Part shown: in pieces, positions 28,652-63,881 of the stretch
Numbering within the stretch: position 1 is the first letter of the stretch
Layout of the letters: each line of letters opens with the position of its first letter
Assembly (NCBI GenBank): GCA_025517465.1
Contig: JAOPKE010000005.1
Span: 1 to 64,000 of the forward strand
Reading direction: 5' to 3'
Source of the DNA: Halobacteria archaeon HArc-gm2
GTDB taxonomy: Archaea; Halobacteriota; Halobacteria; Halobacteriales; Haloarculaceae
Length of the DNA: 64,000 bases
The notes under the pieces: model-generated
What the model was told of the DNA's origin: nothing
The model's database searches: none
What the model saw: the letters and a program-made list of their open reading frames with translations, nothing else
Program-made: the position numbers and the translations under genes

Positions 28652-28692
28652 TGGCGACTACCGGTTTCGGCCGATGGATCGAACGGAAGGGT

Positions 28693-28818
28693 GGGACTGA
28701 AAGGGGCCGCCGTCTCGGGGAAGGCGGACCCGACAAGCACCGAAGCGAACGCAGTGAGCGAGGAGCGCAGTCGCGGGCCCCCGACCCGAGACGGCGGGGG
28801 CTTTCCTCTGTTTGCGGA
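28693..28818. repeat. Single half-unit of the GGACTGAAAGGG/GAGGGCTTTC repeat family
   Basis: This stretch begins GGACTGAAAGGGG and ends GGGGGCTTTC followed by a TTTGCGG tail, the same frame as the ends of the larger elements at 34190, 44112 and 63268. It carries the shared inner motif AAGCACCGAAGCGAACG with GTGAGCGAGGAGCGCAG. Here the unit folds on itself: CGCCGTCTCGGG near the left pairs with CCCGAGACGGCG near the right. It separates hyuA from hyuB, which otherwise would be close. It is best read as a non-coding repeat, despite open frames through it. Confidence 0.7.
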
Positions 28819-34005: not shown

Positions 34006-34080
34006 GGATGGTGTTAGGGGTTCGCGCGCTGGAAATACGTTCTCGGGCCTTTCTGCCGAATGGTGTGATTAGTTCTGTGA

Positions 34081-34899
34081 GTGTTGTGAGTGATCTGTCG
34101 GGTTTGGGTTGTCAACGTGATCGAGGAAGGCAACACGTCGAAAGACCTCTGTGCGCTCTCTGCAGTCAGAATCGGGACCGACACCAAAGGAAAGCCCTCG
34201 GCCCGCTGAACTCGCGCGGACCGCACTGCGCTCCTCGTTGCACTGCGGTGCTTGTGGGTCCGTGCTTCGTTCACCGAGCCTCGCCCTTCCAATCCACCAG
34301 GAGAGCAAGCTCTCCTGAGCCCTGGCTCGCTTCGCTCGCCAGGACACCAGGATCAGCCTCGCTCGCGCGATGGAACGCGCTCGCGATTAGCTCCGCCAAA
34401 CCTCCCCGGATTCGGCGCGGACGCGCCGAATCACGCTTCCTGCCCGCTCCGCAACCGCACGGCCGGGAGCGCGTTTCATCGCGCGACCAGGGGGAGGGCA
34501 GGGCTACGGTGCTGTGCTGGCCTGGGGTCCTGCCGAGCGTAGCGAGGCAGGGCTCGTCAGAGCTTGCTGTGCTGGCCTGGGGTCCTGCCGAGCGTAGCGA
34601 GGCAGGGCTCGTCAGAGCTTGCTCTGACGGTGGACTGAAAGGGCGAGGTGCGGTCCGGGAACCCGGGCGCAGCAAGCACCGGACGGAGTGAGGTCGTTCG
34701 AGAGAGCGAAGCTCTCTCGTGATGACGAAAGGCGCTTCGCGCCTTTCGAACCACGCGCAGCAAGCCCCGGGACCGGAGCGCTCCGAGGGCTTTCTGGTTG
34801 TTCGCGGACTTGTATCCTCCAGCACCAGTCCAGAAGAATCACCCACTCACAACACAAACTACTCGATCACGTAGATAACGCAGATCCCACCCAAACCCG
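34081..34899. repeat. Large palindromic repeat element B, between two DUF58 cassettes
   Basis: The core (34190-34794) starts GAAAGCCCTC and ends GAGGGCTTTC. Its left unit (34190-34300) and right unit (34630-34794) are inverted versions of one another, each carrying the GCACCG/GAGGAGCGCAG-type inner motif and a CGCCCTT/AAGGGCG box. Weaker inverted matches reach outward (CGGGTTTGGG at 34099 with CCCAAACCCG at 34890; CGTGATCGAG at 34116 with its complement at 34862). The centre holds a 10-bp-stem hairpin with GGAC loop at 34409-34432. Compared with the elements at 44112 and 63268 the centre is in reverse orientation. It is full of open frames, but these are Pro/Arg/Ser-rich and I regard them as spurious. 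Confidence 0.8.
34511..34620. repeat. Two exact tandem copies of a 55-bp sequence
   Basis: Positions 34511-34565 and 34566-34620 are identical, each beginning GCTGTGCTGGCCTGGGG and containing the small palindrome CCTGCC-GAGCGTAGCGA-GGCAGG. They lie in the centre of repeat element B and are absent from the other two elements, so the duplication is recent and local. Confidence 0.85.
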
Positions 34900-44111: not shown

Positions 44112-44511
44112 GAAAGCCCTCGGCGCGCTCCGGTCCCGGGACTCGTTGCGCTCCTCACTCCGTTGCGGTGCTTACGTCGTCCGGGTTCCCGGACCGGCCC
44201 TCGCCCTTTCAGTCCTCCAGGACCGCAGCCCTGCCCTTCCCCTGGTCGCGCGCCCCTCGCTTCTGCTCGGGGACGCGCTCCTGGCCGACCGCTGTGCGGT
44301 TGCCGTGCTGTGAGGACGCGTGATTCGGCGCGGACGCGCCGAATCCGGGGAGGAGTGGTGGTTCTAATCGCGAGCGCGTTTCATCGCGCGAGCAACGCTG
44401 AACCTGGTGGACTGAAAGGGCGAGGCGCGGTCGACGAAGCACGGCGACGCAAGCACCGACCGCAGGGAGGCGCGCAGCGAGCCGCGCGAGTCGAGCGGGT
44501 CGAGGGCTTTC
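44112..44511. repeat. Palindromic repeat element C
   Basis: It begins GAAAGCCCTC and ends GAGGGCTTTC. The left unit (about 44112-44220) and right unit (about 44405-44511) are inverted copies with boxes CGCCCTTTCAGTCC and GGACTGAAAGGGCG. The centre contains a 10-bp-stem hairpin with GGAC loop (44322-44345), a GCGCG-TTTCAT-CGCGC hairpin (44374-44389) and an ACCGC-TGT-GCGGT hairpin (44288-44300). It has no tandem duplication. It lies between the HNH-like gene start and the DUF192 gene. Frames crossing it are not credible proteins. Confidence 0.8.
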
Positions 44512-46007: not shown

Positions 46008-46201
46008 ACGCTCACTCGCCGATACCGGGGGGAGAAGATTTCGATCCGGTTCCTGTATGGGCGTTCCGCTCGCGTGATCCGGGCCACGGCGTGCACCCGG
46101 CGCGAACCCAACAGATTGATGAGCGCGGACGGCAACAACTCATTCAACTATGTCGGACAACGACAACGGGGATAGAGGAAGTCGCCTCACGGCGGCTGGC
46201 C

Positions 46202-47785
46202 GTGAAATTCTCCGGCAAGCGTGATTCAGAGGACGGGACTGTGAGCGGGTCCGCGCTGTTCGGGCAGCACCCGCTGACGGAACCCCTCTCCGACGTCGGC
46301 GACGTACAGTTCTTCGACACGACGCTGCGTGACGGCGAGCAAGCGCCGGGTGTGTCGCTCTCGCCGGACGAGAAGGCACACATCGCGGGGCTGCTCGACG
46401 ACGCCACCGTCGACGTCATCGAGGCCGGCAGCGCCTGTACCGGCCCGGGCGAGCGCAAGACCATCTCCCGGGTCGCCGACCTGGACCTCGACGCCACGGT
46501 GACGAGTTTCTGTCGCGGCATCCAGAACGACGTGGACCTGGCGCTGGAGTGTGGCGTCGACGGCGTGGACATCGTCGTCCCCGCCAGTGACCGCCACGTC
46601 GTGGACAAGGTCGGCACCTCGCGCGAGGAGAACGTTCAGGACACCGTCGAACTCGTCGAGTACGCCAAGGACCACGGCCTCTGGGTCGAGGTCATCGGCG
46701 AGGACGGTTCGCGCGCGGACCTGGACTACCTCGAAGAGTTGCTGGGTGCAGCCATGGACGCCGGCGCGGACCGCATCTGCTGGGCCGACACCGTCGGCCA
46801 CGCGACGCCCGACGGTGCCGTCGAGGCAGTCTCGCGGCTCTCCGAACTCGGACCCGTGAGCACCCACACCCACGACGACCTGGGGCTGGCCGTGATGAAC
46901 GCGCTCGTCTCCGTCGCCGCGGGCGCGGACATGGTCCACGGGACGATCAACGGCATCGGCGAGCGGGCCGGCAACGTCGCGCTGGAGGAGGTCGCCATCG
47001 CCCTCGACCACGGCTACGGCGTGGAGACGATGGACCTGACGAAGGCCTACGAACTGGGCGAACTCGTCGCCAACGCCACCGGGATGCCGCTGCCGCCGAA
47101 CAAGGCCGTCGTGGGCGCCAACGCCTTCACCCACGAGTCGGGCATCCACACCGACGGGACGCTCAAGGACGACGCGATGTACGAGCCCTACCCGCCGGAG
47201 AAGGTCGGCCGGGAACGACGGCTCGCGCTGGGCAAGCACGCCGGTCGCGCGGGCGTCGAGGCCGCACTGGAGGAGCGCAACTTCGACGTCACCGACGACG
47301 AACTGGGCGAGGTCGTCCAGCGCGTCAAGGAGATCGGCGACCGCGGCCGGCGCGTGACGGACGCCGACCTCATCACCATCGCCGAGGAGGTCCAGGGCGC
47401 GGAACACGACCGCCGGGTCGAACTGCTCGACCTCACCACCGTCGCCGGCGGCGGCACGCCCACCGCGAGCGTCCGCCTCTCGGTCGACGGCGAGGAGCGC
47501 AAGGAAGCAGAAGTGGGCTCGGGTCCGGTCGACGCCGCGCTCAACGCCGTCCAGTCGGCGCTGGGCCACGCCGCGGACACCCACCTCGAATCCTACCACG
47601 TCGACGCCATCACCGGCGGCACCGACGCCGTCGTCACGGTCGAGGTGGAGATGTCCCGGGGCGACAGGACGGTGGCCGTCACCGCCAGCGACTCGGACAT
47701 CACCCGCGCGTCGGTCCACGCGATGGTCGACGCCATCGACCGCCTCATCGCCGAGGACTCCGAGCACGTCATCGCCGACGACTGA
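46202..47785 (+). CDS. leuA: 2-isopropylmalate synthase / (R)-citramalate synthase family (LeuA/CimA)
   Basis: The catalytic TIM barrel carries FFDTTLRDGEQAPGVSL, HTHDDLGLAVMN with the metal-binding His pair, and TINGIGERAGN; the C-terminal part (about 395-520) is the LeuA regulatory domain for feedback control. It condenses acetyl-CoA with 2-oxoisovalerate (leucine) or pyruvate (isoleucine by citramalate). The start is uncertain: the frame is open back to 46091, but similarity begins only at about 46270. GTG at 46202 and GTG at 46241 are both possible; I list the first. An out-of-frame ATG at 46150 opens a 24-codon ORF overlapping this start. Confidence 0.85.
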   Translation: MKFSGKRDSEDGTVSGSALFGQHPLTEPLSDVGDVQFFDTTLRDGEQAPGVSLSPDEKAHIAGLLDDATVDVIEAGSACTGPGERKTISRVADLDLDATVTSFCRGIQNDVDLALECGVDGVDIVVPASDRHVVDKVGTSREENVQDTVELVEYAKDHGLWVEVIGEDGSRADLDYLEELLGAAMDAGADRICWADTVGHATPDGAVEAVSRLSELGPVSTHTHDDLGLAVMNALVSVAAGADMVHGTINGIGERAGNVALEEVAIALDHGYGVETMDLTKAYELGELVANATGMPLPPNKAVVGANAFTHESGIHTDGTLKDDAMYEPYPPEKVGRERRLALGKHAGRAGVEAALEERNFDVTDDELGEVVQRVKEIGDRGRRVTDADLITIAEEVQGAEHDRRVELLDLTTVAGGGTPTASVRLSVDGEERKEAEVGSGPVDAALNAVQSALGHAADTHLESYHVDAITGGTDAVVTVEVEMSRGDRTVAVTASDSDITRASVHAMVDAIDRLIAEDSEHVIADD

Positions 47786-63149: not shown

Positions 63150-63267
63150 TCGACCGTAGTTTGGGGCGGACGATTGTACGGGTTTCGCTTTTCGCGAGAG
63201 ATAGGGAGCTTCTGTAACGATGGGATGGATCTGTGAGTGCTGCTGTGCGTGAGGGCACAAACACCCA

Positions 63268-63720
63268 GAAAGCCCTCAGCGCGCTGGAGTCGCGCGGACC
63301 CCCTGCGCGCGCTCGTCCCTCGCGTGCTTGCGGGTCCGTGCTTCCTCCAGCCCGCCTCGCCCTTTCATCCACCAGGCCCGCAGCGCAGCCCTGCCCTTCC
63401 CCTGGTCGCGGCATGAACGCCGCTCCCGGCCGACCGCCGCGCGGTTGCGGGGCGGTTGGGAAGCGTGATTCGCGCCGGACGGCGCGAATCCAGGGAGGTT
63501 TGGCGGAGTCAATCGCGAGCGCCTCCGTGGCGCGAGCGAGGTTGTGCCTGGAGGACTGAAAGGGCGAGGTGCGGTCGACGAAGTCCGACGAAGTAAGCAC
63601 CGCAACGGAGTGAGGAGCGCAGCGAGTCGCACGAGTCGAGCGCGCCGAGGGCTTTCGAGATGGTTGCGGTATCGTTGTCGACTCCAGAGAGCGCGTCGAG
63701 GGCTTTCGAGGTGTTGCGGT
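63268..63720. repeat. Palindromic repeat element D with duplicated right end
   Basis: The core (63268-63656) starts GAAAGCCCTC and ends GAGGGCTTTC, with left and right inverted units as in elements B and C. Its central hairpin (63467-63490) has the same outer stem and GGAC loop but a different inner stem, GATTCGCGCC paired with GGCGCGAATC. A second hairpin reads GCGCC-TCCGT-GGCGC (63519-63533). After the core the right terminus is repeated once (GAGGGCTTTCGAGGTGTTGCGG from 63698, given here in part). It separates the siroheme decarboxylase from the trpD-like gene. Confidence 0.8.
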
Positions 63721-63881
63721 CGTCAATAGCACACCCATGCGCTCAGAATCACACCAGATCGTTACAGACACGCCCTTTACGGATCGCCCGACGCCGTACC
63801 GAGTTGCGACTAGCCACACCGTCCGGAACCTCCTTCGCGGGAAACGGGAGCCTTTAGACGCGCGCAGTCGAACCCACCGAT

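Follow-up and report, generated by a model that had tools for sequence, protein, structure and literature searches.

The long palindromic elements lying between the genes of Halobacteria archaeon HArc-gm2 are, judging from comparison of their sequences, probably non-autonomous, MITE-like mobile elements built around a structured-RNA domain of ∼109 nt. The initial annotation, made from a 64,000-nt stretch of one contig (JAOPKE010000005.1, positions 1 to 64,000; hereafter, the window), had offered three readings: a mobile element, a nucleoid- or replication-associated site, or a gene encoding a large structured RNA. Support was found for the first and the last, as different layers of the same object. 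A nucleoid role finds no support, and a replication or transfer role is possible only for a single-copy relative carried by plasmids.

The three elements originally described (34190–34794, 44112–44511 and 63268–63656) were all found at these places with the boxes attributed to them. In the window, GGACTGAAAGGGCG (with up to two mismatches) occurs 8 times versus 0.67 expected, and GAAAGCCCTC occurs 7 times versus 0.16 expected. The decamers GAAAGCCCTC/GAGGGCTTTC, taken as the bounds of the elements, are indeed present, but the true element is ∼85 bp longer, continuing beyond the decamers. A search of the window with R1, a covariance model built from the unit, yielded six units in the three elements plus one solo unit, the latter an addition to the elements first reported. 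The features are as follows:

28689..28805, plus strand: solo unit, RNA-like, whose boxes are the variants AAAGGGGCCG...GGCGGGGGCTTTC (R1, 67.8 bits)
34063..34873, minus strand: element 1, whole, a-end left and b-end right (end profiles and centre orientation)
34190..34300, minus strand: RNA-like unit 1 of element 1 (R1, 110.2 bits)
34301..34626, minus strand: centre of element 1, holding a perfect 55-bp tandem duplication (34510–34619)
34627..34794, plus strand: RNA-like unit 2 of element 1, its apex extended by a long inserted hairpin (R1, 87.6 bits)
44112..44220, minus strand: RNA-like unit 1 of element 2 (R1, 115.7 bits)
44221..44403, plus strand: centre of element 2 (sequence and centre orientation)
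44404..44511, plus strand: RNA-like unit 2 of element 2 (R1, 108.2 bits)
63208..63267, plus strand: b-end of element 3, a weak match (end-b profile, E 0.061)
63268..63375, minus strand: RNA-like unit 1 of element 3 (R1, 79.5 bits)
63376..63547, plus strand: centre of element 3 (sequence and centre orientation)
63548..63656, plus strand: RNA-like unit 2 of element 3, the best match in the window (R1, 123.2 bits, E 2.2e-25)
63657..63707, plus strand: 51-bp tandem duplication of the end of element 3, closing with a second GAGGGCTTTC
63708..63788, plus strand: a-end of element 3 (end-a profile)

For element 1, the end profiles match at 34139–34063 (a) and 34795–34873 (b), with the centre in minus orientation. 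The centre of element 2 contains a hairpin, ATTCGGCGCG-GAC-GCGCCGAAT, whose complementarity is kept despite variation among the copies read. Downstream of element 2, and unrelated to it, lies a leuA-Halobacteria RNA (RF03001, 67 bits; 46161–46213, plus strand).

Over the whole genome, GGACTGAAAGGGCG (with at most one mismatch) has 157 matches, compared to 1 for the reversed pattern. We fetched 80 genome stretches around these matches for analysis and obtained 147 R1 matches in 79 fetched loci. The genome carries at least 147 units, mostly as ∼70 head-to-head pairs. In 67 cases the element has its two units and its two terminal decamers, and solo units exist too. Chance palindromes were rejected on the basis of box counts far above expectation and of shuffles. 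From the outside in, an element consists of an AT-richer outer end (∼85 bp), a terminal decamer, a unit (usually 101–111 nt), a centre (usually 170–250 bp, and ∼190 bp in this genus), an inverted second unit and the opposite outer end. These outer ends, a and b, differ in sequence. The a-end reads GAGGGCTTTC-GAGTGTTTG...GATCGCTCACTAC...CTGTACTGACCA, and the b-end reads GAGGGCTTTC-TGGTTGTTGGCGGT...CCACCCGTTCA...TACACAC...ACTGACCA, with conservation on the b-side reaching as far as the last of these motifs. Among elements with classifiable ends, centre orientation tracks the a- and b-ends, which indicates that the element has a fixed polarity. The centre of element 1 is reversed relative to the other two, as noted at the outset, but the reversal covers the entire element and not the centre alone. 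Terminal decamers are often tandemly duplicated at 50–55 bp, mostly 51. In the window's own genome the duplicated end consists of GAGGGCTTTC and ∼41 bp, with a 51-bp period in 27 of 44 cases; tandem end duplications in other genera have other periods. The elements (∼400–800 bp) lack a transposase gene, and all 74 that we checked are intergenic, both as originally claimed. Two places outside the elements, C4:84987 and C11:53439 (L273 and L274), share GCACGC(T/C)CTGTACTGACCGAT, possibly another small repeat of this genome.

The unit is more than a palindrome. From an alignment of 42 type-1 units, drawn from several genera and from plasmids, we predicted a consensus structure in which 96.6% of cells are paired, versus 24–48% in slid controls. 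Compensatory double changes are seen at 21 of the 31 pairs, and double-change cells number 194, compared to 59.5 in shuffles; these controls keep relatedness, and the structure tested derives from the same 42-unit alignment. By these numbers, compensatory covariation is strong across the 109-nt domain; quasipalindrome correction during replication could contribute to it in part. Wobble pairs point to one strand. For the mixed set, with helices predicted on both strands, G-T outnumbers A-C by 24:0 or 42:7, depending on scoring. Helices predicted in the same way give 117:9 in 91 type-1 units of the window's own genome and 38:19 in other genera, and when 147 own-genome units are aligned to the model the ratio is 174:21; strand-biased deamination could account for part of this excess, and the counted cells are not independent. 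An unrelated stem (type 2), which takes the same place between the same boxes, mainly in Halosimplex, gives 28:12. The G-T excess falls on the strand running from GGACTGAAAGGGCG to GAGGGCTTTC. Thus the unit bears out the structured-RNA reading in both covariation and wobble strand, and these sequence patterns make it look like something under selection as RNA, with the reading direction pointing away from the centre.

Strictly conserved bases of the unit form an internal loop, GAAAGGGCGAGG/CCGAGGGCUUUC, that in the predicted structure can hold a tandem sheared G-A motif. Unpaired AAGCA and GCGCAG are also conserved. Single-sequence folding energies are weakly below those of shuffles (z −0.6 to −2.7), and as such energies are uninformative at this GC content, we left them out of the evidence. 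No clear TATA is evident in the GC-rich centres. Open frames do run through the elements, with eight ORFs of at least 60 aa overlapping element 1, but strict pairing, conserved boxes and stems of variable length argue against codon selection, and on these sequence features we set a protein-coding reading aside. The suggestion that such frames are a source of annotated hypothetical proteins is nonetheless plausible, some plasmid copies being annotated as 'hypothetical protein'.

The unit is widespread. Counting genome matches to R1 at E ≤ 1e-4, we found the unit in at least 318 of 392 genomes of the order and at least 78 of 95 genera; up to nine candidates were scored per genome, so the counts are floors. 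About 81% of sampled genomes are positive, often with dozens of copies each. In 454 kb of the window's own genome, away from most fetched elements, five R1 matches exceed 45 bits, several of them at places already showing elements by box search; the rest fall below ∼31 bits, placing the threshold well clear of noise. The elements gave no match to covariance models of Rfam 15, a search of phages gave none either, and in the literature searched, which covered few subscription papers, neither the motif nor an RNA of this kind is described. The haloarchaeal box also occurs on a contig binned as the bacterium Roseibacillus sp. (L193, PAQU01000062.1), probably a mis-binned haloarchaeal contig.

A relative of ∼370 bp is found on 156 plasmid records and in 185 of the 392 genomes, with 82–97% identity over most of its length among many records from different families. 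Most plasmids carry one or a few copies, and several have the form at two or more places; in annotated copies the conserved core ends at GAGGGCTTTC. On many megaplasmids its place is conserved and syntenic, usually between a gene for an OB-fold or 'DNA-binding protein' and a small-gene cluster that often includes HalOD1 and DUF7558 members. The OB-fold matches of this neighbour are weak, with Pfam scores below curated cut-offs. In Halobacterium salinarum, the plasmid form lies on pNRC200 at 318424–318742; it is also on pNG600 of Haloarcula marismortui (95171–95541) and on pHME132 of Haloferax mediterranei. As regards a TnpB omega-RNA or IS605 right end, the genes flanking the annotated plasmid copies are not consistently tnpB, although one lies ∼1.5 kb from the matched copy on pNRC200. 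On the same plasmid (L387), the conserved upstream sequence GGTCGCGAGCGACG occurs twice within 8.3 kb. For a functional gene, the plasmid form is our leading candidate.

The mobile-element reading is upheld by IS6-type ends, 8-bp duplications and an IS6 partner in Halonotius, by presence or absence between sister species, and by cassette exchange. In Halonotius roseus, solo units sit within ∼200–260-bp elements with ends GGNNGTGTTCAGATA...TATCTGAACACNNCC, and these solo elements have ends in common (GTGTTCAGATA...TATCTGAACAC) with a 689-bp IS. Target duplications of 8 bp are GTGACGCC (L323) and AATCAACC (L326); that of L324, GATCCGTG, is offset by one base. The 689-bp IS (L322), with target duplication CTAGTACC, contains an intact 213-codon IS6-family frame that scores above the cut-off of PF13610, and a second IS6 copy is frameshifted. 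Similar ends surround solo units in Halorussus, and related ends are found on IS6 elements of Halosimplex and of a genome sister to the window's own. Unit pairs 1.6–2.4 kb apart in Halosimplex and Halonotius were considered as composite transposons and rejected: by eye, the frames between such pairs are ordinary genes (short-chain dehydrogenase-like, ArsA-type ATPase-like and methyltransferase-like), with no transposase seen. Halosimplex pelagicum (G059), a genome rich in type-2 units, has four IS6 copies (C1:2743684, 3207846, 3650254 and 5198409) with equal match scores and an identical 221-aa frame, and target duplications are visible at some of them; this IS6 was likely active recently.

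In the window's own genome, presence or absence between species is seen; target duplication above the control is not. Relative to the sister genome (∼92% identity over 400 kb), some element sites are common, others are absent, and the sister has extra sites of its own; at one site (343432), what is missing is the element together with its outer ends, and there is a short local replacement. The flanks have 8-mers in common in 2 of 67 elements, versus 4.8 in the control. No IS6 transposase gene was found in the 18-contig assembly, and the ends of the elements differ from those in Halonotius. Looking for an autonomous copy with own-genome ends, we found that CTGTACTGAYCR matches only elements and unrelated places, and that end profiles over 824 kb match in elements only. 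Among whole elements the best full-length identity is 87%, with no near-identical copies. These data suggest that mobility here is old or works differently.

Parts of the elements are nonetheless nearly identical. Blocks of 100–130 bp with 94–100% identity are common to otherwise diverged elements, in direct or inverted position (e.g. L082/L106, 106 bp, 100%), which shows that units move as modules. Many such blocks start within ∼6 bp of GGACTG and stop at the last base of GAGGGCTTTC. Because the boxes are common to all elements, alignments tend to stop there, and so the exactness of these boundaries hints at a site-specific mechanism but does not prove one. A second block of ∼106 bp, ∼97–99% identical, occurs in the centres of L045, L078, L082 and L106 and in an element of the sister genome (B44949). 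A site common to the sister genome can carry another unit type there.

The main rival explanation is that of a palindromic repeat acting at the DNA level (REP/BIME-, SMR-A- or PATE-like), in which a single-stranded DNA hairpin serves an HUH or other transposase and covariation comes from replication-linked palindrome correction. We consider this a genuine possibility, though not a probable one. It would accommodate units that are paired in inverted orientation and exchanged as modules, ends that are tandemly duplicated, and the fused, stemless ('empty') boxes seen in a few genomes, such as the exact GACTGAAAGGGCGAGGGCTTTC in G060; the SMR-A repeat of Haloquadratum is likewise ∼110 bp with terminal inverted repeats (PMC3119063). 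Such a repeat does not account well for wobble pairs that are asymmetric between strands, for the conservation of unpaired loops, or for the conserved syntenic locus of the plasmid form. Moreover, HUH/RAYT mobilisation in this genome was rejected, as its only Y1 (HUH) transposase gene (PF01797, C12:183850) adjoins no element.

The strand asymmetry also bears on a second explanation, that the plasmid form is a transfer or replication origin, a DNA site copied or mimicked by the dispersed chromosomal units. The low copy number and strong conservation of the plasmid form, its ssDNA-binding-like OB-fold neighbour and the MPF_T typing of several host plasmids would suit an origin, but the excess of G-T over A-C favours RNA, and MOB-suite predicts 156 of 156 plasmid records to be non-mobilizable, a typing that is poor for archaea. 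We judge this explanation unlikely. Slightly more doubtful still is a host regulatory element, in which the unit is a terminator, RNA-stability or 3′-UTR element kept for the sake of its neighbours. The 3′ end of the unit, a GC-rich stem followed by CTTTC, is of the right kind, and all elements are intergenic. With neighbour genes called by a simple codon-usage script, convergent gaps are overrepresented, holding 24 of the 74 elements with callable neighbours versus 27 of 188 gaps of at least 100 bp (p = 0.0016). This bias is also expected from the purging of promoter insertions, however, and elements occur in every gene context and show gain and loss when sister species of ∼92% identity are compared.

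A mobile element built around a structured RNA remains the reading we prefer. Its fold, strand and spread, and the partnership with IS6 in Halonotius, are read from sequence; from these we infer transcription, function, the direction of descent and a transposase for this genus. As the two units face each other across a centre in head-to-head order, reading of each would proceed outward, starting at box CCTGGTGGACTGAAAGGGCGAGG and reaching a 3′ end at CCGAGGGCTTTC. The predicted RNA strand is GGACT(CA)GAAAGGGCG...GAGGGCTTTC, with its predicted 3′ end at GAGGGCUUUC, and units are presumably transcribed. Movement would be driven in trans by DDE transposases, of the IS6 family in Halonotius. Cassette exchange may keep the boxes uniform while the rest diverges. 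The plasmid form would be a functional non-coding RNA gene, perhaps partnered with the neighbouring OB-fold protein, and chromosomal copies may descend from it, by analogy rather than from a tree, as SINEs do from host RNA genes. More tentatively, and with the odds against it, there may be an unrecognised class of large haloarchaeal RNA: a plasmid non-coding RNA gene that works with the OB-fold protein encoded next to it and has had its 3′ domain turned into a SINE-like, DNA-transposed repeat in dozens to more than 100 transcribed copies per chromosome, the RNA possibly guiding unit-for-unit replacement.

How do these elements compare with known systems? The Halonotius copies resemble archaeal IS6-type MITEs in their 15-bp-type ends (GGNNGTGTTCAGATA), 8-bp duplications, lack of coding capacity and intact ∼690-bp IS6 partner with the same ends. 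They differ in their cargo, an RNA-like domain, conserved and covarying, that is common to genera with differing outer ends, and in that the window's own genome has no detected target duplication or IS6 gene. The closest published haloarchaeal repeats we found are the PATE and SMR of Haloquadratum (PMC3119063). There, SMR-A is described as having no target duplication and as forming modules nested in other repeats; judged from that description, its likeness goes no further than size and anatomy, the solo units studied here have an element of their own around them, and no structured-RNA claim is seen in the description. PATEs, described there as a heterogeneous group of non-coding repeats, have palindromes close to their ends and conserved oligonucleotides at the termini, lack terminal inverted repeats and are related to IS605 (PMC3119063). 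We rejected membership on this description, given the inverted repeats and target duplications, both of IS6 type, in the Halonotius copies. Bacterial REP/BIME, served by RAYT transposases, are similarly high-copy intergenic palindromes, often in inverted pairs, but the elements here are far longer, and no elements flank the sole Y1 gene. SINEs derived from tRNA or 7SL RNA are non-autonomous, high-copy elements in which a structured-RNA domain has a conserved gene as its relative. The parallel is one of analogy only: the ends here indicate DNA transposition.

If the RNA reading is true, an RNA present in ∼81% of sampled genomes would have gone unregistered, even on the well-studied plasmids pNRC200, pNG600 and pHME132. 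Many of the unexplained intergenic palindromes would find an explanation, as would many spurious hypothetical proteins annotated over them. Prokaryotes would have a rare example of a structured RNA domain serving as cargo common to non-autonomous transposons with differing ends, and haloarchaeal genetics would gain a testable RNA together with a candidate protein partner.
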